NCBI GenBank assembly: GCA_000509225.1
Contig: BAOK01000001.1
Span: forward strand, 2,526,914 to 2,590,913
Direction of reading: 5' to 3'
DNA length: 64,000 nt
Origin: Parvibaculaceae bacterium Mf 1.05b.01
GTDB lineage: Bacteria > Pseudomonadota > Alphaproteobacteria > Parvibaculales > Parvibaculaceae
Shown here: positions 9,647 through 49,300 of the stretch, piece by piece
How positions within the stretch are numbered: position 1 is the first letter of the stretch
Layout of the letters: every line of letters begins with the position of its first letter
The notes under the pieces: model-generated
Seen by the model: only the letters and a program-made list of their open reading frames with translations
Database searches by the model: none
Told to the model about the DNA's origin: nothing
Position numbers and translations under genes: made by a program

Positions 9647-12081
9647 CCGCGCAGTTTGCCGCCTGTTGCTTTGGCGACCGCCGCGACGACCTTATCGCTC
9701 ACCGCTTCCAGCTCTTCGTCCGTCAGGGTTTTATCCCGTGGCTGCAACGTCACTTCGATGGCGAGGGACTTCTCATCCGCGCCGAGGCTCCCGCCTTCAA
9801 ACGCATCAAAGAGCGTTACCCCGGTGATCAGCTTTTTATCCGCACCCGCCGCTGCATGTACCAGCGCATCCGCCGCCTGATCCTTCGCAACAATGAAGGC
9901 GAAGTCCCGACGCACAGGCTGAAGATCAGGGATCGTGAGGCCCGGCTTGGTTTTCGTCGGCTTCACTTTCGGCTTCGGAATGGCGTCGAGCATCACTTCA
10001 AAAGCCACAATCGGCCCTGCCACATCGAGCGCATCTAGAATCTTCGGGTGAATTTCACCGAACCTCGCCAGCACATTTTTTGGGCCCATACGGAAAACGC
10101 CTGAACGGCCCGGGTGATACCAGGCCGGCGCATCGGCTGCGACCTGTAGATTGTCGACCTTTGCGCCAAGGCTTGCGAGCAGTGCGGCGGCATCGGCCTT
10201 GGCGTCGAAAACATCAACCGCATTCGCTGCGCCCTGCCACTGACGTCCGGCACCATTAATCCCGGCCGTGCCCTGTCGGACACCGGTCGCGACATTGATC
10301 TGATCTGTCGGTTGGTCGCCCTCATATTGCTGCGCTACTTCGAACAGCATGATGTCACGTGCGCCACGGGCCATGTTGCGCCCGGCTGCCGCGATCAAGC
10401 CTGGCAGAATGGCAGGCCGCATATGGCTCATGTCACTGGAGATCGGATTGGCGAGCTCAAGAGGTGCAATCGCATTCTCACCGCCGCCAAAGAGTTCCGC
10501 CTGAGCCTTTGGAATGAAGGACCAGTTCACCGCTTCCACGAAGCCCCGCGAGGCCAAGACGCGCTTGGCATTGCGCAAGCGCTTCTGGGATAGGTTAAGC
10601 ACAGGGTCCGCCACAGCATGTGATTTTGGCAGCGGTGTGGACGTGACTTCCTCAAGCCCGTGAATACGGACGACTTCTTCCACCAGATCCGCTTCGCCAA
10701 ACACATCCGGGCGCCAGCTTGGGGGTGTCACATCGAGACGCCCGCCTTCACCAATTGTCACTTCGAAGCCGAGGTCGCCCAGGATTTTTTCAATCTCTGC
10801 GGTTTCCAATGCAACACCGGTGAGCTTTGCCACCCGCGCCGGATCGAATGAGATCACATGGGAATGGTCCGGCGTTTCGCCGGCGACAACCATGTTCGAT
10901 GCTTCGCCTCCGCAGAGCTCCATGATGAGTGCTGCAGCGCGATCAACACCCGGCAGTGTCGAGGCCGGATCAATACCCCGCTCAAACCGGTAGCGCGCAT
11001 CAGACACAATGCCCGTCTTTCGGCCTGTCGACGCCGTTCTGCGCGGATCGAAGTAGGCGCTCTCGATGAAAACATCCGTCGTTGCGTCCGTCGACCCGCT
11101 TTCTTCTCCGCCCATCACGCCCGCAAAACCTAATACACGGGCATCGTCGGCAATCACCGTCATGGTCTCATCAGCTTTGTATTCTTTGCCGTCGAGCGCT
11201 GTGAAGGTATCGCCTTTGCCAAGTCGGGCGCGCACATTGCCGTTGAGCTTTGCCACGTCATAGACATGCAGCGGACGGGCCTGATCGTAAGAAAGGTAGT
11301 TGGTGATATCGACCAGGGCATTGATGGGGCGCAGACCAATGGCGATCAAACGCTCCTGCATCCAGGCGGGGCTTGGGCCGTTCTTCACGCCGCGCACCAT
11401 GCGGCCTGCCAAAATGGGGCATGCGTCTTTTGTGTCTGCGTCGAACTCAAGCTCCATACTGACAGAGCTTTCGAACGCGTTAGACACTTTGGGAACAGCG
11501 GTTTCTTTCAACGTGCCGAGACCAGCAGCCGCTAAATCACGCGCAATGCCATAGACACCCAGGCAATCAGGCCGGTTCGGCGTGATGCCGATCTCAATCA
11601 TGGGATCGGTTTTGCCCAGCGCTTCCGACGCCGGCGTGCCCACAGCAAAGTCACCGTCGAGCTCAATGATGCCGGTGTGCTCGTCAGAGAGCTCAAGCTC
11701 GCGCTCAGAACACATCATGCCGTTTGATTCAACACCGCGGATCTTTGTGGGCTTCAGCACCATGCCGTTCGCGGGGATCGTGGCACCCGATGGTGCAAAG
11801 ATGCCGAGCAGGCCGGTCTTGGCGTTCGGCGCGCCGCATACGACTTGCAGCATCTCGGTCTTGCCATCGACGACTGCTTCCACTTTGCAGAGCTTCAGCT
11901 TGTCCGCATCGGGGTGTGGCCCAGCTTCAACAATGCGCGCAACCGCGAAGGGCGCAAGCGCTGCCGCCGGGTCCACCACCTCTTCGACCTCAAGGCCGAT
12001 CATGGTGAGCTTGTCGACGATCTGATCAAGGGTCGCGTCGGTGTCGAGATGATCTTTCAACCATGAGAGGGTGAACTTCAT
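9643..12081 (-). CDS. pheT: Phenylalanine--tRNA ligase beta subunit
   Basis: An 812-residue protein with the full bacterial PheT layout: N-terminal EMAP-like tRNA-binding domain (about 40-150, with [13 protein letters not shown]), B3/B4 editing domain (about 210-380), B5 DNA-binding-like domain, catalytic-like core, and the C-terminal FDX-ACB anticodon domain ([17 protein letters not shown] to the end). With PheS it forms the (alpha-beta)2 enzyme that charges tRNA-Phe. Its start overlaps the pheS stop by 4 bp, giving translational coupling. Confidence 0.98.
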
Positions 12082-40094: not shown

Positions 40095-40625
40095 TCAGGT
40101 CGGCGCGCCCAACACGATGACCTTGTCGGCAGAGAGCCCCTGTGCCTCACAGAGCCCCTGGTAGGCCGCGAGAATGCTCTGCGCGTCAACAATGCCAATC
40201 ACATTACCGTCGTCATCCACATTTATGTTGGCGCCATAAATGGCAAACCAGACATCTGTCTCCCCTTCATTATCTTCTGACACGGTCAGCGTATGTACAG
40301 AGTGGGCCGGTTCATAAAGGTAGGACCCCTTCGTGTTCACATAGTCGGGATATTCCTTGTAATACCAACTGCCTTCCAACGTCACAGCGAAAACTGAGCC
40401 TGTGTGGTAGTGCTTGTCGACTTTATAACCTGGCGCAAATTTCGTGCGCACAACCCAAAGCCCCTGGTTGAGGTCGACCTGCAACAACTGCAATTTGCTT
40501 CCATCGCCTAGGTCAACGAATGGCAGATCGCTTTCGCCAATATGGATTGCGGCCGTCAGACCGTGCGCCGGGATCATGCCGCCCTGCCCTGCAATCTGCT
40601 CACTCATGTTTGGTGTGTCACTCAT
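40095..40625 (-). CDS. Cupin, 2,4'-dihydroxyacetophenone dioxygenase family
   Basis: 176 residues from the ATG at 40625 with GGAGGAAG ahead. The cupin core carries the metal ligands in KVDKHYHTGSVFAVTLEGSWYYKEY (H-x-H, then E) and a later His in EPAHSVHTLTV. The family enzyme splits the C-C bond of 2,4'-dihydroxyacetophenone to 4-hydroxybenzoate and formate using iron; the same fold is in ChrR. The true substrate is unknown. It ends 8 bp from the converging tetR gene. Confidence 0.75.
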   Translation of the reverse strand: MSDTPNMSEQIAGQGGMIPAHGLTAAIHIGESDLPFVDLGDGSKLQLLQVDLNQGLWVVRTKFAPGYKVDKHYHTGSVFAVTLEGSWYYKEYPDYVNTKGSYLYEPAHSVHTLTVSEDNEGETDVWFAIYGANINVDDDGNVIGIVDAQSILAAYQGLCEAQGLSADKVIVLGAPT

Positions 40626-40740
40626 GTCTTCCTCCGAAGCTAAAAACGCCCCGCTGATTTGAACCTGGTGGTCTTCTGGGGGCATCGGTCTATATGGTTA
40701 CCTGCATCCTACCTCTCCACACCGATCAACGCATCCCATC

Positions 40741-42171
40741 ATGAGCCCCACACTCGTCCTCTTTCATACCAACCTTCGGGTCGGCGACAATCCGGCGCTT
40801 ACTGCTGCAGCGGAATTGGGCCCGGTTGTGCCCATCTTTGTGCTTGATGAGGGTTTTGGGCGTCCGATTGGCAATGCCTCGCGCTGGTGGCTCCACCGCT
40901 CGCTTCAATCTCTTGCAAAGAGCCTTAAGGGTCTCGGCGCCCCGCTCATTCTTCGTCAGGGCGACCTGATTGATGCCGTGAAGGAGCTTGTTGAGGAGAC
41001 CGGTGCGCCCCGCGTCTTTCTGCAGCATGGCTACGACCCGTCGGTCCAGAAAGGCGAGGCGGCACTTCATGACTGGGGCGTAAAGTCGGATGTTGAGATT
41101 AAACGGTTTGCTGGTCAGGTCCTCTTTCCACCAGAGACAATCCGAACACAACAGGACAAGCCCTACACGGTCTTCTCCCCTTTCTGGCGAACCTGTCTAA
41201 AACAGGCGAGCTTTGGGCCGCTGGTACGGTGCACCGCGCTTGTGCCTGTGGCCAAACAGCCAGGCTCTCTCGATCTGGACGCGCTCAATCTCCTCCCCAA
41301 TGGCTTTGATTGGACACCGGGTCTCTCAGACGCTTTCACGCCCGGTGAGGCTCACGCCCTAGAAACGCTTGATGCTTACCTTGATGATGGTCTGCGGTCC
41401 TATAAAGAGATGCGCGATCATCCTGGTCATTCGCCCGGCACATCAAAGCTTTCAGCACATCTTCGGTTTGGAGAAATCAGCCCGCGCACGATCTGGCATC
41501 GAACCCAAGACGCCATGGCGCGAAACCCGGATCTTGCCCGCGACGGGGAGTGGTTTCTGCGCGAGCTTGGCTGGCGGGACTTCTCCTATAACCTGCTCCA
41601 TCACTTTCCGTCCTTGCCGGAAAAGCCGCTCCGCCCCGCCTTCGATGATTTTCCCTGGACCGAGGGCCCGAGCACTGACCTCGCGGCCTGGCAAAAAGGG
41701 TTGACCGGGTTTCCCATCGTTGATGCAGGCATGCGCCAGCTCTGGCAGACAGGCTGGATGCATAATCGGGTGCGCATGATCGTCGCCTCCTTTCTGGTAA
41801 AAGAACTGCTCATTCACTGGCGGGAAGGAGAAGCCTGGTTCTGGGACACGCTGGTTGATGCGGACCCAGCGAGCAACACGGCCAGTTGGCAATGGGTGGC
41901 AGGGTGTGGCGCCGATGCGGCGCCCTATTTCCGAATTTTCAACCCGGTTTTGCAGGGTGAAAAGTTTGACGCTGATGGTGCCTATGTCACCCGATTTGTG
42001 CCGGAGCTTGCAGAACTTCCGAAAAAATACCTCCACAAACCGTGGGAAGCGCCAGCGGATATTCTGGCAGAGGCCGGTCTGCGGCTGGGTGAAAATTATC
42101 CGCGTCCCATTGTGGACAGGAAACAGGCGCGGACCCGCGCCCTTGAGGCATTTCAGTCGATTAAGGCCTAA
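40741..42171 (+). CDS. phr: Deoxyribodipyrimidine photolyase (class I CPD type)
   Basis: 476 residues. N-terminal antenna domain (LVLFHTNLRVGDNPALTAAAELGPVVPIFVLDE) and C-terminal FAD domain with WHNRVRMIVASFLVKELLIHWREGEAWFW and DADPASNTASWQWVAGCGADAAPYFRIFNP. It repairs UV dimers in DNA using blue light. In Rhodobacter a photolyase is in the RpoE singlet-oxygen regulon; here it is near that locus, but I find no clear TGATC-N18-TA promoter in front. Confidence 0.96.
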   Translation: MSPTLVLFHTNLRVGDNPALTAAAELGPVVPIFVLDEGFGRPIGNASRWWLHRSLQSLAKSLKGLGAPLILRQGDLIDAVKELVEETGAPRVFLQHGYDPSVQKGEAALHDWGVKSDVEIKRFAGQVLFPPETIRTQQDKPYTVFSPFWRTCLKQASFGPLVRCTALVPVAKQPGSLDLDALNLLPNGFDWTPGLSDAFTPGEAHALETLDAYLDDGLRSYKEMRDHPGHSPGTSKLSAHLRFGEISPRTIWHRTQDAMARNPDLARDGEWFLRELGWRDFSYNLLHHFPSLPEKPLRPAFDDFPWTEGPSTDLAAWQKGLTGFPIVDAGMRQLWQTGWMHNRVRMIVASFLVKELLIHWREGEAWFWDTLVDADPASNTASWQWVAGCGADAAPYFRIFNPVLQGEKFDADGAYVTRFVPELAELPKKYLHKPWEAPADILAEAGLRLGENYPRPIVDRKQARTRALEAFQSIKA

Positions 42172-42190: not shown

Positions 42191-42220
42191 TGATCCAGTC
42201 CCGCCTCGCACCCGTATACC
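42191..42220 (+). promoter_or_regulatory. RpoE (ECF11)-type promoter of the DUF6134-SDR-NTF2 operon
   Basis: TGATCC (42191-42196), 18 bp, TATACC (42215-42220), matching the TGATC-N18-TA pattern of RpoE-ChrR promoters and the two other sites at 46392-46473. Its downstream gene starts at 42251. Confidence 0.78.
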
Positions 42221-42250
42221 AATCAATAACGCCGTTTCATGGAGATTTTG

Positions 42251-42985
42251 ATGAGGCTTTCAGCCCTTACCCCGCGCCTGCCCCTAAAGCCGCTTGCTCT
42301 TGCGGCCTGTCTATCTGCGTTCAGCGTGCCCCCTCACGCTGCAGCCTCCGCGCCAGATATGACCGAGCAGGCGCGGGCCCTCTATGGGGACTCCATCGCC
42401 TTTGACATCTACCGGAATGATGCGCGCATCGGGTCGCACAATGTCACCTTCCGCGATGAGGCCGCGGGCCTGAAAGTCACGACGAATTTCGAACTCGAAA
42501 TCGGCCTGCTCTTCGTCACACTGTTTGAGCTACAATATCAGTCCGAGGCCCTCTGGGAAGATGGACAACTTGTTGCGCTGAGCGCAAGAACAGACCGCAA
42601 TGGCGACATCTCTGAAGTGGAAGCGTCTGTCTTCGAAGACACGCTCACAATTGATGGTCCGAATGGCCGACAGACGACTGCGATGGGCGTTTACCCAACC
42701 AATCATTGGAACTCTGGCGTGATCGGCAGCACGCAGCTGATGAACACGATCACAGGCAAAGTGAACGACGTGCGGCTGGTGCCGCTTGGGACAGAACGTG
42801 TCACCACCAATGCGGGCATGGTGGACGCCACGCGTTACAAGTATGAAGGCGCGATCCAGAACGAAGTCTGGTACGACGCGGATGGCCGCTGGGTCGCCAT
42901 GCAGTTCCCCGGCGATGATGGATCCTTGATCGAGCTGCGGTGCCGCCAATGCGTCGCCAGCGCCTCGCTTGAGGCAACACGATGA
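42251..42985 (+). CDS. Exported DUF6134-like protein
   Basis: 244 residues from the ATG at 42251 (GGAG 6 nt upstream). Signal peptide about residues 1-32 (LALAACLSAFSVPPHAAASA). The mature domain (FDIYRNDARIGSHNVTFRDEAAGLKVTTNFELEI..., LIELRCRQC) is a predicted periplasmic beta-barrel-like fold seen next to RpoE-ChrR genes; function unknown. It starts a three-gene operon with 4-bp overlaps. Confidence 0.75.
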   Translation: MRLSALTPRLPLKPLALAACLSAFSVPPHAAASAPDMTEQARALYGDSIAFDIYRNDARIGSHNVTFRDEAAGLKVTTNFELEIGLLFVTLFELQYQSEALWEDGQLVALSARTDRNGDISEVEASVFEDTLTIDGPNGRQTTAMGVYPTNHWNSGVIGSTQLMNTITGKVNDVRLVPLGTERVTTNAGMVDATRYKYEGAIQNEVWYDADGRWVAMQFPGDDGSLIELRCRQCVASASLEATR

Positions 42986-43752
42986 GCCACACACCCAAAA
43001 CAGTCTGGATCACGGGTGCCGGTAAGGGTATTGGACGCGCGCTTGCGCTCAAGATGGCCGCCGATGGATGGACCGTCGCGGCAAGCGCCCGCACCACTGA
43101 CGATCTGGAAACACTCGCCCAAGAGGTGGCCTCCAGCAATTCAATGGGCGCGATCCATGCTTATCCGCTGGATATTATCGACATCGAAGGCAATCAGAAT
43201 GTGCTCGCCCAAATCGAACAGGATTTGGGACCTCTGAACCTTGCGGTGTTGAACGCGGGCACCCATCAGCCCATGTCAGCGTCAGAGTTCTCTGTCGACA
43301 CGGTGCGCCACCTGGTTGAAACGAACCTGATGGGAACGGTGAACGGGCTCGGCGCTTTGCTACCGGTCTTCCGGGCACGGCAGAGCGGTCGGATCGCGGT
43401 CGTCTCCTCTGTTGCCGGCTACAGGGGCCTGCCCACATCGGCGGCCTATGGCGCCACGAAGGCGGCGCTCATCAATATGGTTGAGGCGATGAAGCCGGAG
43501 CTCGACCGGGAAGGTGTTTCCATCTCCCTCATCAATCCGGGCTTTGTTGAGACACCACTCACAGAGAAGAACGAATTTCCGATGCCTTTCCTTGTGACCG
43601 CAGAGGACGCAGCCACCACTATTTATCGGGGGCTTGAGGCTCACAAATTTGAGATCGTCTTCCCTCGCCGCTTCGCCTTCCTGATGAAGGTTTTGCGCCT
43701 CCTGCCGAACCGTCTTCTGTTTTCAGTAACTTCACGGATGATCACGACATGA
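42982..43752 (+). CDS. Short-chain dehydrogenase/reductase
   Basis: 256 residues. Classical SDR: cofactor motif TGAGKGIG (about 11-18), NAG (about 90), catalytic Ser and Y-x3-K in SAAYGATKAALINM, and NPGFVETPLT. It reduces a carbonyl or oxidises an alcohol with NAD(P)H. The substrate is likely an oxidised lipid or related stress product, given the RpoE-type promoter. It overlaps both neighbours by 4 bp. Confidence 0.9.
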   Translation: MSHTPKTVWITGAGKGIGRALALKMAADGWTVAASARTTDDLETLAQEVASSNSMGAIHAYPLDIIDIEGNQNVLAQIEQDLGPLNLAVLNAGTHQPMSASEFSVDTVRHLVETNLMGTVNGLGALLPVFRARQSGRIAVVSSVAGYRGLPTSAAYGATKAALINMVEAMKPELDREGVSISLINPGFVETPLTEKNEFPMPFLVTAEDAATTIYRGLEAHKFEIVFPRRFAFLMKVLRLLPNRLLFSVTSRMITT

Positions 43753-44183
43753 CCACCGCTCTCGACAAATATGCCCGCTTTATGGGGTCGCTCAGCAGGG
43801 AGAGCCTTGAGACTCTTCCCGATTTTGTGATGCCGGACGTACATTTCCGCGATCCCTTCAATGAAGTAATCGGCGCTGACAGGATGGCTGAGATCTTCGT
43901 GCACATGTTCGACACGGTAGGCGACGTACGTTTCGAGATCCTCCATAGTGCGGTCTCAAGCGCAGCTGACGGTGACACCGGTATGCTTTACTGGCGCTTG
44001 CACTCAACCTTGCGCAAGAAGCCCTGGTCCTTTGAAGGCATGAGCCGGGTGCAGTTCAATGCCAATGGCCAGGTGGTTTCTCATTTTGATCACTGGGATG
44101 CGGCGCGGGAGTTTTACGAACATTTCCCTGTTATCGGTTGGGCATTATCGTCGATCCGCAACAAGATTGCCCTTGCTGCCTGA
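43749..44183 (+). CDS. Nuclear transport factor 2-like (SnoaL-fold) protein
   Basis: 144 residues, cone-shaped SnoaL/NTF2 fold: LDKYARFMGSLSRESLETLPDFVMPDVHFRDPFNEVIGADRMAEIF and QVVSHFDHWDAAREFYEHFPVIGW. It may be a small isomerase or binding protein. It is the last gene of the RpoE-type operon. Confidence 0.82.
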   Translation: MTTALDKYARFMGSLSRESLETLPDFVMPDVHFRDPFNEVIGADRMAEIFVHMFDTVGDVRFEILHSAVSSAADGDTGMLYWRLHSTLRKKPWSFEGMSRVQFNANGQVVSHFDHWDAAREFYEHFPVIGWALSSIRNKIALAA

Positions 44184-44210
44184 ACGTGACGCTGCTTGAA
44201 CGTGACTGGG

Positions 44211-45005
44211 TCAGTCCGCTGCTTCTGATCTTATCTTGATCGGGGCGTGAGTCGCTGTGATGCGTTCAGCAGCCGGCTCATGGCGAACGATCGGCACCTT
44301 CTTCCACCACAGCTTCAACGCTTCATAGTGGATGCCCACAGTGACCTTGAGCGTCATCAGGGGGTATTGCAGGAAGGTGAGCAGCAGCGCCTTGTCGTTC
44401 CAAGGTTCGCGGTCCCCTTCAAATGAAGCTGACAGGAGCGGGCCTTCCGCATCACTCAGGCCGATAAACACCCGGACGGTTTCGCCCGGCGGACACAGTT
44501 CAAACTGGTAGTGCCCGTCCATTTCCGTAAAGGGTGACACATACATGCGCTTTTCAGTCTCCTGACGGACACGCCCGCGGAGATCAACCGGTGCAGGCAA
44601 GACGTAAGTATGTTTCTCATTAAACGTGTTGTGCACTTCGTGCAGAGTCACCGTCAATACGCCATTGGGATCGTAGCAATAATAGACCGTCAACGGGTTG
44701 AAGACGTAGCCGAGGATACGCGGGTAACAAAGGACGCGCACACGCATGTCTTTTGCGCAAAACCCTGCCTGGGTGACATGCTCCGCCACCCAGTCTTTCA
44801 GGCCTGTGCGCTCTCCTGCCCCATGATCCTTTTCCCAAAAGGACAATAGGGACCGGCGGTTGACACCAAACAAACGGCTGGTGCGATTGATCTCACCAAG
44901 CTCATCTAGATCGAGCAGAAGCGAGAAGACCCGATAGCGCAGCGTGTGGCGCGTCGGGCGCCGCCGGGCGTGATCAACAAATCCTTTATAGAGGCTTGAG
45001 AACAT
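44211..45005 (-). CDS. DUF1365 family protein
   Basis: 264 residues, with the conserved blocks HTLRYRVFSLLLDLDELGEI, RVLCYPRILGYVFNPLTVYYCYD, LHEVHNTFNEKHTYVLP and KRMYVSPFTEMDGHYQF. It follows the FAD oxidoreductase gene by 5 nt. This gene pair is a standard member of RpoE-ChrR regulons; in Rhodobacter it has been connected with fatty-acid modification under singlet oxygen. The exact reaction is not established here. Confidence 0.88.
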   Translation of the reverse strand: MFSSLYKGFVDHARRRPTRHTLRYRVFSLLLDLDELGEINRTSRLFGVNRRSLLSFWEKDHGAGERTGLKDWVAEHVTQAGFCAKDMRVRVLCYPRILGYVFNPLTVYYCYDPNGVLTVTLHEVHNTFNEKHTYVLPAPVDLRGRVRQETEKRMYVSPFTEMDGHYQFELCPPGETVRVFIGLSDAEGPLLSASFEGDREPWNDKALLLTFLQYPLMTLKVTVGIHYEALKLWWKKVPIVRHEPAAERITATHAPIKIRSEAAD

Positions 45006-45010
45006 GGATA

Positions 45011-46363
45011 TCAGTCGGCTGCCAAGGGCAGAACCACCTCTGTGTTAACGCGCGAGCTGTTTGACGCCACATTCCAGGGACGGAGCGTGCCGGACAGCTG
45101 TTCAGCCACTGCCAGCCCCGCTTCGAGTGCATCTTCATGGAATCCGTAGCCAAAGTATGAGCCACAATACCATATCCGATCTCGTCCCTGCAGCTGCCAA
45201 AGTTCTTTCTGCGCCTTAATGGCCGCGCGATTAAAGAGCGGGTGCTGATAGGAAAATTTCCGAATGATGGTCTCATCGCGCGGGGTAATATGCGGGTTCA
45301 GCGTGACGAAAAGCGGGTGGCTTTCGTCAATCCCCTGCAGTCGGTTCATCCAGTATGACAGCGTCAGCTGCTTACCCGCATCTGCCGCGCCGTCATCAAT
45401 ATAGTTCCAGCTTGACCAGACGCGGCGACGCTTAGGCATAAGACGCGCGTCAGTGTGGAGGTAAGTGTCATTGTCGGTGTATTGGAAAGCACCGAGCAGC
45501 CTCTGCTCGCCCTGACTGGGATTTGATAACAGTGTCAAAGCATCATCTGCATGGGTGGCCAGGACAACATCATCAAACAGGTGTTGGTTGCCGCTCTCAG
45601 TCATAACTGCAACGCCGTTGAGTGTCCGTGTGACCGCAACCACGCCTTCCCGTCTGATCTTTCCCTGATAGGAAGCCGTCAGGCGTTTCACATATTCTCG
45701 GCTGCCCCCATCAACCGTACGCCATTTGGGCCGGTCTTTGAATTTCAGCAGGCCATGGCTCTCGAAGAACCGCACGAAGGTCGCCAGGGGATAATCCAGC
45801 ATATCCTTGACAGTGGTCGACCAGATCGCGGCCCCCATGGGCAGGATGTGATCGCGAATAAATGCGTCGGAATAGTTATTCTCCTGTAGATAGTCGCCCA
45901 GCGAGATTTCTGCTGAGGACGCCGCTCCATCAAGGGTCGGAGCCGTCTTATAGAAACGCACAATGTCGGACATCATGGCCCAGAAGCGGGGGCTCACCAG
46001 GTTGCCGCGTTGCCCCAGCAGGCCGTTCAAGCCGGTCCCGCTATACTCAAAGCGGCCTTTGTCGATGGATGCCGCAAAGGACATGTCAGACGACTTGGTT
46101 GGCACATTCAAATGGTCAAACAGAGCCACGAGGTTTGGATAGTTTTGCTCATTGTAGACGATGAAGCCCGTATCGACCGGAAGTGGTTTTTCGCCCCGGC
46201 CTGCATCCACCGTATTTGAGTGTCCGCCAATATGGTCCCCTGCCTCAAAGACAGTGATGTCATTCTCCTTGTTCAATAACCAGGCGGCGGACATGCCCGC
46301 AATTCCAGACCCGATAATGGCGATTTTTTTGCGTGTTTTGGGGAGGGACGCTTCGTAGGGCAA
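45011..46363 (-). CDS. FAD-dependent oxidoreductase (amine-oxidase fold), RpoE operon
   Basis: 450 residues from a TTG at 46363 with AAAGGCTGG ahead. An ATG at 46459 in the same frame lies upstream of the mapped RpoE-type promoter and so cannot be the start. FAD site: KKIAIIGSGIAGMSAAWLLNKENDITVFEAGDHIGGHSNT. The family is related to squalene/phytoene desaturases and acts on lipids. It is divergent from rpoE and followed by DUF1365. Confidence 0.9.
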   Translation of the reverse strand: MPYEASLPKTRKKIAIIGSGIAGMSAAWLLNKENDITVFEAGDHIGGHSNTVDAGRGEKPLPVDTGFIVYNEQNYPNLVALFDHLNVPTKSSDMSFAASIDKGRFEYSGTGLNGLLGQRGNLVSPRFWAMMSDIVRFYKTAPTLDGAASSAEISLGDYLQENNYSDAFIRDHILPMGAAIWSTTVKDMLDYPLATFVRFFESHGLLKFKDRPKWRTVDGGSREYVKRLTASYQGKIRREGVVAVTRTLNGVAVMTESGNQHLFDDVVLATHADDALTLLSNPSQGEQRLLGAFQYTDNDTYLHTDARLMPKRRRVWSSWNYIDDGAADAGKQLTLSYWMNRLQGIDESHPLFVTLNPHITPRDETIIRKFSYQHPLFNRAAIKAQKELWQLQGRDRIWYCGSYFGYGFHEDALEAGLAVAEQLSGTLRPWNVASNSSRVNTEVVLPLAAD

Positions 46364-46391
46364 ATGACCAGCCTTTTTCTGTGTGTTTATT

Positions 46392-46421
46392 TGAATACGG
46401 CTGAAACGCGGGGTTAGATCA
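46392..46421 (-). promoter_or_regulatory. RpoE (ECF11)-type promoter of the FAD oxidoreductase-DUF1365 operon
   Basis: On the minus strand TGATCT (46421-46416), 18 bp, TATTCA (46397-46392). Transcription would start near 46385, about 22 nt before the TTG start codon. Confidence 0.82.
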
Positions 46422-46444
46422 GGAAAAATCACGTAAAAACATGC

Positions 46445-46473
46445 TGATCTAACACCCATTTTGGTGCGTAAGA
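46445..46473 (+). promoter_or_regulatory. RpoE (ECF11)-type autoregulatory promoter of rpoE-chrR
   Basis: TGATCT (46445-46450), 18 bp, TAAGA (46469-46473): an almost exact match to the RpoE consensus. The expected start site falls at or next to the rpoE ATG at 46480, so the mRNA may have no leader. Confidence 0.88.
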
Positions 46474-46479
46474 CATATT

Positions 46480-47187
46480 ATGAGTATGCACGATAATATT
46501 TCCGGTTCAGGTCGCGAGCGCAGTAGACTGCGCTTGGTGGTCGTCAATAATGACGCCCCGCAGGACCTTGGAGCACCCAATCCAGAAATGGCCGAAGCGC
46601 TAGTGGAAGAGTTTGACATTGACGACCATGCGGCATGCCTGCAGGCAGTTGGCGCGCATCAGGACAAAAGAGCATTCAAGTCCCTGTTTTCCTATTTCGG
46701 CCCGCGTGTGAAGGCCTATGTCATGCGCCTTGGATGCCAGCCAGGACAGGCGGAAGAACTCACACAGGAAACCATGATCAAGGTTTGGCGGAAAGCCAGC
46801 CAGTTTGATGCCTCCAAATCCGCACCCTCCACCTGGATCTTCCGAATTGCCCGAAATCAACGCATTGACGTTTTTCGGCGCGAAAACCGACCTGAACTGG
46901 ACCCTAATGATCCGAGCCTCATACCCGAGCCGGAAGAAGCAGCAGATAGCGTGATCGAGCAGAAGCAGTCAGAGATGCAGCTTCTGGAAGCCATGAACCA
47001 CCTCTCTGAAGACCAAAAAGCCATTCTGAAACTATCGTTCTTTGAGGACATGTCTCACGGACGCATCGCCGAGCATCTGGAAATCCCGCTCGGCACCGTG
47101 AAATCGAGACTGAGGCTTGCCCTGGGCAAGCTGCGCTCCACTTTAGATGATAGCAGACTACCTCCCACCGACGGACGACGCGTATGA
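46480..47187 (+). CDS. rpoE: ECF sigma factor RpoE (singlet-oxygen response)
   Basis: A 235-residue ECF sigma of group 11. Region 2 contains CQPGQAEELTQETMIKVWRKASQFDASKSAPSTWIFRIARNQRIDVFRR; region 4 contains LSEDQKAILKLSFFEDMSHGRIAEHLEIPLGTVKSRLRLALGKLR. The N-terminal 40 residues are an extension of low complexity. It is held inactive by ChrR and released by singlet oxygen. Overlaps chrR by 4 bp. Met3 (46486) or later starts cannot be excluded. Confidence 0.95.
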   Translation: MSMHDNISGSGRERSRLRLVVVNNDAPQDLGAPNPEMAEALVEEFDIDDHAACLQAVGAHQDKRAFKSLFSYFGPRVKAYVMRLGCQPGQAEELTQETMIKVWRKASQFDASKSAPSTWIFRIARNQRIDVFRRENRPELDPNDPSLIPEPEEAADSVIEQKQSEMQLLEAMNHLSEDQKAILKLSFFEDMSHGRIAEHLEIPLGTVKSRLRLALGKLRSTLDDSRLPPTDGRRV

Positions 47188-47846
47188 CTATTCGCCATCA
47201 CATTGCAGACGAAATCCTTGCCTCTTACGCTTCGGGCAGCTTGCCTGAATCCTGGAGCCTGTTGGTCGCGACCCATCTGGCCCTGTGCCCTTCCTGTCGG
47301 AAAGCGGCGCGGGACGCTGAAGAGCTCGGTGGCGCGCTGCTGGATGAGCTGACGCCTGTCGATTTGAGTGAAGACGCTTTTGACAAATTGATGAGCAAGC
47401 TTGAATCCGCTGAGCCGGAAGAAGAGGCCGTTGGGGCGAAGAAGCAGACAACTGAAATCCCGTCTGTCTTGCCGGAACCGCTTAAGTCCTACCTGGGCGG
47501 AGACCTCCATGCGTTGAACTGGAAGCGGCTCGGCAAAGGTGCGTATCACATCCCCATCACTCTTCGGAACGGGGAAGGCAAAGCCCGCCTTCTGAAAGTG
47601 CCTGCTGGCCAGCCTGTTCCAGCCCATGGGCACAGGGGGGAAGAACTGACGCTCGTTTTGACAGGATCTTTCACAACGCACCAGGGCGAATTCCTGCGCG
47701 GTGACGTTGAAGCTGCCGACGATGATGTTGAGCACATGCCTGTTGCCGGGCCTGGCGAAGACTGTATCTGCCTCGCCATCACAGACGCACCACTCAAGTT
47801 CAAGAGTTTGGGCGCTCGGATCGCACAACCGTTTATAGGCATCTAG
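47184..47846 (+). CDS. chrR: Anti-sigma factor ChrR
   Basis: 220 residues. The zinc anti-sigma domain has H6, H31, C35 and C38, identical in numbering to Rhodobacter ChrR. The C-terminal cupin domain holds H148, H150, E154 and H184, with C194 and C196, each seven residues later than the Rhodobacter ligands as I recall them. Singlet oxygen causes ChrR turnover and frees RpoE. All key residues are present, so it should be functional. Confidence 0.95.
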   Translation: MTIRHHIADEILASYASGSLPESWSLLVATHLALCPSCRKAARDAEELGGALLDELTPVDLSEDAFDKLMSKLESAEPEEEAVGAKKQTTEIPSVLPEPLKSYLGGDLHALNWKRLGKGAYHIPITLRNGEGKARLLKVPAGQPVPAHGHRGEELTLVLTGSFTTHQGEFLRGDVEAADDDVEHMPVAGPGEDCICLAITDAPLKFKSLGARIAQPFIGI

Positions 47847-47992
47847 GTCTAAAGCGCTCCCCCCTTATTGGCGAGCTCAATACCCTCTTTTTCCTTACCG
47901 TTGTTTGCACAAAAAAAACCTCTATCTTGCCGGTGACTTTGTGACGGATGACCTCTTCGCGGAGGCATCGACGCAGGAAAGGGTTTGCGTTT

Positions 47993-48979
47993 ATGGCAGA
48001 TGTACTCGCGGTAGCGGCAAGCAATCTGGTTTCACCAGCTATACTGGCATTCTTACTGGGCGGTCTTGCCGGTTTCCTTCGAAGCGATCTGGAAATACCA
48101 GAAGCGATCGCCAAAGGGCTATCGATCTATCTGATGCTCGCCATCGGGCTCAAAGGAGGTGCGAGCCTCGCTTCCTCCGACGCTGGCATGTCTATCCTGC
48201 CTGGATTAATTGCCGCAGTCCTGCTGAGTTTTCTGATCCCTTACATCGCGTTTTTCCTGCTGCGCATGACAACCCGCTTCTCCACGATTGATTCCGCGGC
48301 TGTCTCTGCCCACTACGGCTCCGTGAGCATCGTGACCTTTGTCACAGCCACTCAGTTTCTGACCAGTCTCGACATCACTTATGAGGCCTACATCATCGCC
48401 ATGGTCGCACTGATGGAAACACCGGCGATCGTGTCCGGTCTCCTGCTCGCACGCAAAAAGGGCGCCGAGAACGGTACCAAGCCGCCGCTTTTTCAACCCG
48501 AAATGCTTCGGGAAATTCTGTTCAACGGCTCGATCATGTTGCTGCTTGGCGGGTTTGTGATTGGCTGGGCCACCGGAGAACAAGGGCTAGAGACAGTCGC
48601 CCCATTCTTTGTTGATCCGTTCCAGGGCGTGCTCTGTCTCTTCCTGCTGGATATGGGGCTCGTGGCAGCACACCGTCTTCGTACCGCCTCGTCGCTTAGT
48701 CCCTCAGCGATTGCGTTCGGGCTCTATATGCCGATCATCGGAGCCGTGCTTGGCGGCGCGACCGGCTATGCAGTTGGCCTCTCAGCAGGTGGCACCACAT
48801 TGCTCGCTGTTCTTGCGGCAAGCGCCTCCTATATCGCGGTGCCCGCCGCCATCAGACTCGCCCTGCCCAAAGCAGACCCGGGCATATTCATCCCCCTTTC
48901 GCTGGGGGTTACCTTTCCCTTCAACGTGCTGGTCGGCATCCCGCTTTATGCGGCGGTGATAGCCACCCTTTACAGCTAA
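47993..48979 (+). CDS. sbtA: SbtA-type sodium-dependent bicarbonate transporter
   Basis: 328 residues from the ATG at 47993 (AGGAAAGGG ahead). About ten membrane helices in two inverted halves; NLVSPAILAFLLGGLAGFLRSDLEIPEAIAKGLSIYLMLAIGLKGG and FVTATQFL..MVALMETPAIVSGLLLA are typical. In cyanobacteria SbtA imports HCO3- with Na+. The gene is followed by a PII-like partner and faces nhaA. In a heterotroph it may feed carboxylases; that use is inference. Confidence 0.9.
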   Translation: MADVLAVAASNLVSPAILAFLLGGLAGFLRSDLEIPEAIAKGLSIYLMLAIGLKGGASLASSDAGMSILPGLIAAVLLSFLIPYIAFFLLRMTTRFSTIDSAAVSAHYGSVSIVTFVTATQFLTSLDITYEAYIIAMVALMETPAIVSGLLLARKKGAENGTKPPLFQPEMLREILFNGSIMLLLGGFVIGWATGEQGLETVAPFFVDPFQGVLCLFLLDMGLVAAHRLRTASSLSPSAIAFGLYMPIIGAVLGGATGYAVGLSAGGTTLLAVLAASASYIAVPAAIRLALPKADPGIFIPLSLGVTFPFNVLVGIPLYAAVIATLYS

Positions 48980-48991
48980 CGGGAGACGATC

Positions 48992-49300
48992 ATGCAGATG
49001 TTCACAAAGAAGAAAATTGAAGTGGTCGTAGAGGCAATCTATGCCCCGCGTGTGGTGGAGGCTGCCAAGAATGCTGGTGCCAAAGGCTATACAGTGCTGC
49101 CTAACCTTCAGGGAAGCGGCACCCATGGCGACCGACGTGGTAGCGGGTTAAGCGGGGCTTTTGAAAACGTCATGGTGATCTGCGTGGTCGATCCGTCCAT
49201 CGCCAGCACCGTCATGACAGCAATCAAGGAAGCCATTGGTGATGCCATTGGCGTGCTCTACGCCTCAGACGTTGAAGTATTGCGGGACGAGCACTTTTAG
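48992..49300 (+). CDS. PII-like SbtB regulator of the bicarbonate transporter
   Basis: 102 residues with a PII fold: IEVVVEAIYAPRVVEAAKNAGAKGYTVLPNLQGSGTHGDRR..SGLSGAFENVMVICVVDPS. The T-loop lacks the Tyr that is uridylylated in GlnB, and the protein follows sbtA by 12 nt, so it is an SbtB type that binds adenyl nucleotides and gates SbtA. The C-terminal Cys loop of some cyanobacterial SbtB proteins is absent. Confidence 0.82.
   Translation: MQMFTKKKIEVVVEAIYAPRVVEAAKNAGAKGYTVLPNLQGSGTHGDRRGSGLSGAFENVMVICVVDPSIASTVMTAIKEAIGDAIGVLYASDVEVLRDEHF

Follow-up and report, generated by a model that had tools for sequence, protein, structure and literature searches.

The sigma factor RpoE and its anti-sigma factor ChrR, a pair of the extracytoplasmic function (ECF) group ECF11, have a described core regulon of eight genes: rpoE-chrR, RSP1087, RSP1088, RSP1090, RSP1091, phrB and cfaS (as cited in PMC5507510; this and all other papers given by PMC number are cited for the sections consulted). 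That is, next to the sigma factor and its partner there are a short-chain dehydrogenase/reductase (SDR, RSP1087), a lipoprotein (RSP1088), the Ufa pair, a photolyase and cfa, and the core as set out in those sections of PMC5507510 does not include DUF6134 or NTF2 proteins. RSP1091-1090 are UfaD and UfaO, which together with the methylase UfaM make furan fatty acids (PMC7380195). The loss of ChrR under singlet oxygen requires RSP1090, and the full defence requires both RSP1090 and RSP1091 (PMC3818230). Here, we analyse a window of 64,000 nucleotides from Parvibaculaceae bacterium Mf 1.05b.01 (GCA_000509225.1, contig BAOK01000001.1, positions 2,526,914 to 2,590,913), in which an rpoE-chrR pair stands beside a ufaD-ufaO-like operon and a third operon, DUF6134-SDR-NTF2.

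We consider it probable that the window holds an ECF11 stress locus, governed by RpoE-ChrR, with three operons, the third of which would handle furan lipids or oxidised lipid products. The locus as such is of a known kind. For the recurrent DUF6134 operon, on the other hand, we found no account in the literature searched, where the name DUF6134 does not occur, and regard it, within that literature, as an undescribed variant; descriptions under another gene name, in Dufour 2008 or in supplements lie outside the search.

Three promoters of one form

An earlier note on this sequence had reported the pattern TGATCC/T-N18-TA, each time with an 18-base spacer, in front of the three operons, and had proposed a single RpoE-ChrR regulon. 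The pattern is present at all three (Table 1). By itself it is weak evidence, since it is frequent both in shuffled sequence and in the genome: the window holds 4 matches against 1.87 expected from shuffles, 10 of 100 shuffles reach 4, and there are 176 matches genome-wide, too many for the bare pattern to be kept as evidence. All three locus sites end in CGTA, that is, they fit TGATCY-N16-CGTA. This form occurs 12 times in the genome, three of them at this locus, and the reversed pattern 5 times; for three such sites within 4.3 kb the Poisson tail is 4e-7, a post hoc figure. We adopted the CGTA form post hoc, having seen it at the three sites, and then tested it on further genomes and compared it with the published consensus. 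The latter, obtained by chromatin immunoprecipitation sequencing (ChIP-seq) for PSPTO_1043, a RpoE/ChrR-type sigma factor of P. syringae, reads TGATCC, 16 bases, CGTA (PMC5507510), and the locus sites have the same form, with T instead of C at base 6 of the rpoE site. As a side observation, the fourth TGATCY-N18-TA match of the window lies at 10301-10326 (+) and ends in CATA.

We judge the sites to be real because they are conserved across related chrR loci. All 23 such loci have a site before rpoE, and all but that of Planktomarina, 22 of 23, have one before the ufaD-like gene. A DUF6134 gene is linked in 8 of them and has the site in 7, the exception being L089. Of the 30 other genomes of the family whose ChrR exceeds the cut-off, 20 are represented among the 23 loci; the rest are Planktomarina, Roseovarius and Sneathiella. 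L031 was left out as the same locus as L085. Base 7, which lies outside the selection pattern, is a purine at 55/55 DUF6134, 36/36 ufaD-like and 39/40 rpoE sites. The abundance of the short pattern could suggest that the site at 42191 is a chance match, an explanation to which we give next to no credence: exact sites stand before 55 of the 144 DUF6134 genes described below against 0-2 at wrong spacings, and the 42191 site is retained in close relatives. Taken as sequence evidence, the three matched promoters argue strongly for one RpoE-ChrR regulon at the locus, as had been proposed.

The RpoE-ChrR pair

Aligned to the solved ChrR of R. sphaeroides (2z2s, 2.4e-53), the ChrR of the window has the ligand-position residues H6, H31, C35 and C38 as well as H148, H150, E154 and H184 (letters checked). 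We take the first four to be the N-terminal zinc-ligand set of ChrR. The positions of the other four, the cupin-domain ligands, are named in PMC6852236. The zinc and cupin ligand positions are all retained, as the earlier note had said, and metal binding itself is predicted from them. RpoE matches general ECF models only, and its placement in ECF11 rests on the ChrR partner and on the promoter. By way of its homologues, singlet oxygen would be the inducer. The CGTA of the rpoE promoter ends 9 bases 5' of the ATG (46445-46486); the mRNA may therefore be nearly leaderless, or translation may start further in.

The UfaD-UfaO-like operon and a remote, likely ufaM

Adjoining rpoE-chrR we find an amine-oxidase-like FAD gene followed by a DUF1365 gene, the pair order of RSP1091-1090. 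The two correspond to UfaD and UfaO, and furan fatty acids may be made here. TTG 46363 is most likely the start codon of the FAD oxidase gene (the list of open reading frames has 46459); we prefer it because it is the sole start codon between the promoter and the FAD motif.

A likely UfaM (L045) shares 44-52% identity with UfaM-like proteins encoded inside the cluster at five other loci, to which the three other CMAS proteins of the genome show 31-39% identity. Its gene is remote from the locus, 1.5 Mb away by contig coordinates. A ufaM-type gene lies within the cluster in four family genomes (G007, G010, G030, G031), and four genomes in which no chrR was found (G001, G002, G004, G029) have the distant CMAS kind only.

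Sites elsewhere in the genome

The earlier note had called the regulon self-contained. This does not hold: besides the remote, likely ufaM, sites of the same form recur outside the locus, four of them within the genus.

One of them stands 124-127 bases before the domain of an rpoH2-type gene in 4 of 4 chrR-bearing genomes examined (397-399 bits). In the own genome this gene scores 396.9 bits (cut-off 315) with the model PRK07500, which we take to be that of RpoH2. The site (L029/L332, G000 C1:771888-771863, -) is likewise seen in G005, G006 and G008 with a changed spacer. In the chrR-less G002 and G004, PRK07500 scores no higher than 319 and 310 bits; these matches lack a site and resemble the second RpoH of the others, and the one at 319 bits is another RpoH that passes the cut-off narrowly. 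In Rhodobacter, rpoHII is driven by RpoE (PMC7074977).

Between an ftsY-like gene and yciB/ispZ lies another site (L010/L346, G000 C1:411257-411232, -). It is found in 9 of 13 chrR-bearing family genomes and in neither of 2 without chrR; the scan covered 15 of 16 genomes, G001 having only a weaker paralogue. When the literature was searched for YciB or septation protein together with RpoE-ChrR, neither term was among the matches listed. In three genomes a recurring site (L038, G000 C2:1555974-1555949, -) is seen ahead of a second SDR gene, starting 57-60 bases upstream of it.

The remaining sites were rejected as weak. Although four genomes retain the site at a YbbA/LolD-like ABC gene (L009), it lies within the listed frame of a divergent GDSL-lipase gene, in a stretch conserved as a whole. 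L019 is inside an open frame, L035, L037 and L039 have no purine at base 7, and nothing resembling L036 is seen in the other six genomes of the genus.

A photolyase nearby had also been pointed out. The gene does adjoin the third operon; a site of its own, on the other hand, is lacking, as no TGATCY-N18-TA match precedes it in the window or in five same-genus relatives. Among photolyase genes of other loci, 8 of 22 tested have a site.

The DUF6134 operon across Alphaproteobacteria

DUF6134 was found in 33 of the 40 genomes of the family and, across the class, in 153 of 385. We examined 144 distinct DUF6134 genes, 41 from the family (all places found) and 103 at class level, the latter mainly the higher-scoring among the matches listed, with lower scores left out. 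The 55 exact sites lie within 400 bases upstream, and 11 further genes are directly behind chrR. On the same stretches, spacings of N14, N15, N17 and N18 give 0, 1, 2 and 0 hits, scrambled boxes 0-1 and the other strand 5. If one mismatch to TGATCYR-N15-CGTA is tolerated, 18 more genes qualify; the same tolerance gives 1 on the other strand and 0.3 in shuffled sequence.

The site is also kept away from chrR. Of the 28 DUF6134 genes in genus g4 that have no link to chrR, 19 retain the exact site; among the other nine, six belong to a paralogue clade in which it is seen at 0 of 8, one reads CATA instead of CGTA, and the remaining two are divergent copies. In two genomes of genus g5 (L135, L136) the DUF6134-SDR pair has a one-mismatch site only. 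We noted a second DUF6134 paralogue clade of sister genera (L103-L110), at none of which there is an ECF11 site.

At class level, an exact DUF6134 site comes with ChrR in each of 28 genomes; of 55 genomes whose DUF6134 has neither site nor adjacency, 43 have ChrR. Among the 385 genomes, both proteins occur in 106, ChrR only in 34, DUF6134 only in 47 and neither in 198 (ChrR at E at most 1e-30; kinship uncorrected). We called a DUF6134 gene ECF11-associated if it had a site, an adjacent chrR, or a chrR in the examined locus stretch. On the DUF6134 tree (143 of 144 rows) this label changes 24 times, versus 48 times when shuffled. It applies to 52 of 63 DUF6134-SDR pairs and to 22 of 81 unpaired genes, counts to be read with the longer stretches examined at chrR-linked loci, where neighbours are more readily found. 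A fuller arrangement is seen in L199, where DUF6134-SDR-NTF2 faces DUF3833-MFS-UfaM-UfaO-UfaD (MFS, major facilitator superfamily), which is divergent from rpoE-chrR; in Sneathiella (L034), SDR-NTF2 has a site and stands without DUF6134. On these sequences, the DUF6134 operon is recurrently tied to ECF11, also far from chrR.

Fold and likely role of the third-operon proteins

The DUF6134 protein matches its family model (PF19630) with 167.4 bits (cut-off 27.9). The AlphaFold model of the mature protein is a half-barrel with a predicted local distance difference test score (pLDDT) of 94.1. With Foldseek its best match is EipB (DUF1849, 6ntr; E 7e-6), then VioE and LprG. VIA-align gives Z 14.2 for an axonemal protein chain, 12.8 for EipB (189 residues), 8.0 for LolA and 7.6 for RseB (families that it does not list are not counted as excluded), with superpositions at a root-mean-square deviation of 4-6 A and 8-12% identity in the EipB alignments. 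A sequence profile of DUF6134 (A1: 125 of 137 homologues among the matches listed, plus the window sequence) gave no match to LolA, RseB or EipB among the sequences of the Protein Data Bank (PDB) at E at most 1; it gave five matches, the best at E 0.056, all of them dihydrodipicolinate reductases. We therefore describe DUF6134 as EipB/LolA-like in predicted fold and leave the kinship at this likeness.

The model of the NTF2 protein (pLDDT 87.4) matches ketosteroid isomerase (KSI), epoxide hydrolase and SnoaL folds with Z of about 14-16, and the single sequence gave 0 matches against solved structures. Its invariant D35-P36 (alignment A2, 42 of 44 plus the window sequence) aligns with the Asp-Pro of KSI, and its Asp may be a general base as in KSI. 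The SDRs that follow UfaO in the loci of Planktomarina and Roseovarius share 34% identity with that of the window. The earlier note had described all three proteins as unclear in function, which applies only in part: an SDR is a listed core member in the sections of PMC5507510 consulted, the NTF2 protein is KSI/SnoaL-like, and for DUF6134 there is now a predicted fold.

From these likenesses, DUF6134 may carry lipids in the periplasm, and the SDR and NTF2 proteins may reduce and isomerise oxidised acyl products in the cytoplasm. The scheme would run as follows. RpoE would be kept inactive by ChrR until ChrR is lost in response to singlet oxygen or organic hydroperoxides; free RpoE would then transcribe rpoE-chrR, ufaD-ufaO and DUF6134-SDR-NTF2 from TGATCYR-N15-CGTA promoters. 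UfaD-UfaO and the remote UfaM would furnish membrane phospholipid with furan fatty acids, which would be destroyed there by singlet oxygen and, as is proposed, help in signalling the loss of ChrR. DUF6134 would be the periplasmic carrier of furan or oxidised acyl chains, the SDR a cytoplasmic reductase and the KSI-like NTF2 protein an isomerase for oxidised products such as enediones.

Several observations weigh against this reading. Deletion of RSP1087, RSP1088 or RSP1089 in R. sphaeroides leaves the fatty acid profile unchanged (PMC7380195), so that an SDR is not required for synthesis; oxidation products are not mentioned in the consulted sections of that paper. The strict site is absent before the likely ufaM in 28 of 30 genomes, the own included, and G017, G020 and G027 (drafts of 98, 71 and 83% completeness) have a ufaM-type gene yet no ChrR over the cut-off. 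As for DUF6134, 78 of the 144 genes lack both an exact site and an adjacent chrR, the strict site also occurs in bases 400-1200 upstream of 8 of 144 (possibly in part promoters of neighbours), and at L089 (G030), where the gene order is kept, the site carries a mismatch. DUF6134 was not found in the examined Planktomarina, Roseovarius and Sneathiella chrR loci, and thus is not part of every such cluster. Likeness in fold alone does not establish a function.

In G017 and G027, moreover, the DUF6134 site is kept without ChrR over the cut-off. Potentially, the sites could be used by a different ECF sigma factor whose architecture is similar, with RpoE-ChrR as one user among several; CGTA-type -10 elements are common to several ECF groups. 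We hold this to be very unlikely, as the identical form precedes rpoE itself at every one of the 23 loci, the yciB site is confined to chrR-bearing genomes among those scanned, and ChrR accompanies the exact DUF6134 site in 28 of 28 class-level genomes.

A less remote alternative, though still an unlikely one, is that RpoE controls the third operon for reasons unrelated to furan lipids, with DUF6134 an EipB-like factor of general envelope integrity and SDR-NTF2 a detoxification of other carbonyls. EipB, to which Foldseek matches DUF6134 best, is tied to envelope integrity in the periplasm, has a LolA-like architecture and is of unsettled role (PMC10787603); this agrees with the alternative, as do the 47 genomes having DUF6134 without ChrR. 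Against it, a UfaD- or UfaO-type gene lies near 38 of 144 DUF6134 genes, and the DUF6134-SDR pairing tracks the ECF11 association; the longer chrR-linked stretches favour both kinds of find.

RseB is a periplasmic sensor for the envelope sigma factor of E. coli. By analogy, DUF6134 might be an envelope reporter of ECF11, RseB/EipB-like, that binds furan or oxidised phospholipid and controls a DegS/RseP-type proteolysis of ChrR. We regard this as a long shot; if true, a cytoplasmic zinc anti-sigma factor would be read out via a periplasmic lipid sensor.

Beyond the core of about eight genes, a further family, DUF6134, often with SDR and NTF2-like genes, stands under an ECF11 promoter across Alphaproteobacteria. 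A family of unassigned function thereby gains a likely pathway and a predicted lipid-carrier-like fold. The fate of furan and oxidised lipids after singlet oxygen, and the route from membrane damage to ChrR, a known gap, become testable.

Locus layout and surroundings

The source is an alphaproteobacterial genome of 3.82 Mb. The gene order is photolyase (+), DUF6134-SDR-NTF2 (+), DUF1365 and FAD oxidoreductase (-), rpoE-chrR (+). Four-base overlaps at the DUF6134/SDR, SDR/NTF2 and rpoE/chrR junctions give the pattern seen in tightly coupled operons. A very close chrR locus, with 95% ChrR identity, is found in the metagenome-assembled genome Rhodobiaceae bacterium FE80.

Directly behind chrR there is an Sbt_1 bicarbonate-transporter-like gene (47948-49300, +), in an organism in whose genome the photosynthetic reaction-centre family PF00124 has no match; the small gene after it looks PII/SbtB-like by eye. 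Divergent from the photolyase gene, a stand-alone ChrR-cupin-like protein is encoded at 40095-40685 (-; Cupin_7, 2.6e-13).

Table 1. Genes and promoter sites of the RpoE-ChrR locus, in positions of the window
Feature	Position	Strand	Remarks
DNA photolyase	40741..42171	+	FAD_binding_7 307 bits; no ECF11 site in front
ECF11-type promoter of DUF6134-SDR-NTF2 operon	42191..42216	+	TGATCCA-N15-CGTA; pattern match
DUF6134 protein	42239..42985	+	ATG 42239 or 42251; signal-peptide-like N-terminus (by eye); predicted half-barrel
Short-chain dehydrogenase/reductase	42982..43752	+	adh_short 6e-47; YGATK motif; 4-base overlap with both neighbours
NTF2/SnoaL-like protein, ketosteroid-isomerase-like	43749..44183	+	SnoaL_2 3.7e-15
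ufaO-like DUF1365 protein	44211..45005	-	DUF1365 264 bits; pair order as RSP1091-1090
ufaD-like FAD oxidoreductase, 450 aa	45011..46363	-	Amino_oxidase 5.6e-16; start TTG 46363
ECF11-type promoter of ufaD-ufaO operon	46396..46421	-	TGATCTA-N15-CGTA
ECF11-type promoter of rpoE-chrR	46445..46470	+	TGATCTA-N15-CGTA
rpoE, ECF sigma factor, 235 aa	46480..47187	+	Pfam Sigma70_r2 4e-19, r4_2 9e-16
chrR, zinc/cupin anti-sigma factor, 220 aa	47184..47846	+	TIGR02451 216 bits (cut-off 124.5); overlaps rpoE stop

Comparison with known systems

With EipB (DUF1849, PDB 6ntr), LolA and RseB, the DUF6134 protein shares the predicted beta half-barrel and the signal-like N-terminus; it differs in the low identity (EipB) and the absent sequence-profile match given above. 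With the UfaM-UfaD-UfaO pathway (PMC7380195) the locus shares the order of the amine-oxidase-like and DUF1365 pair, and the genome has a UfaM-like CMAS gene, whereas here the activity is a predicted one and the ufaM-like gene is 1.5 Mb away.

The PSPTO_1043/1042 system of P. syringae DC3000 has the promoter TGATCC-N16-CGTA and homologues of the SDR, the amine oxidase, RSP1090, cfa and the photolyase (PMC5507510). There the motif stands ahead of the photolyase, which it does not here, and DUF6134 is not named in the consulted sections of that paper.

The RpoE-ChrR regulon of R. sphaeroides, in the sections consulted, is alike in the rpoE-chrR pair, the adjoining ufaD-ufaO, an SDR, the promoter form and a photolyase nearby, and it too counts an rpoH2-type gene among its targets. 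The likeness of our SDR to RSP1087 is one of family. Unlike in R. sphaeroides, the cluster described here has no MFS or DUF3833 gene, its ufaM-like gene is remote and siteless, and its SDR gene lies in an operon with DUF6134 and an NTF2-like gene.

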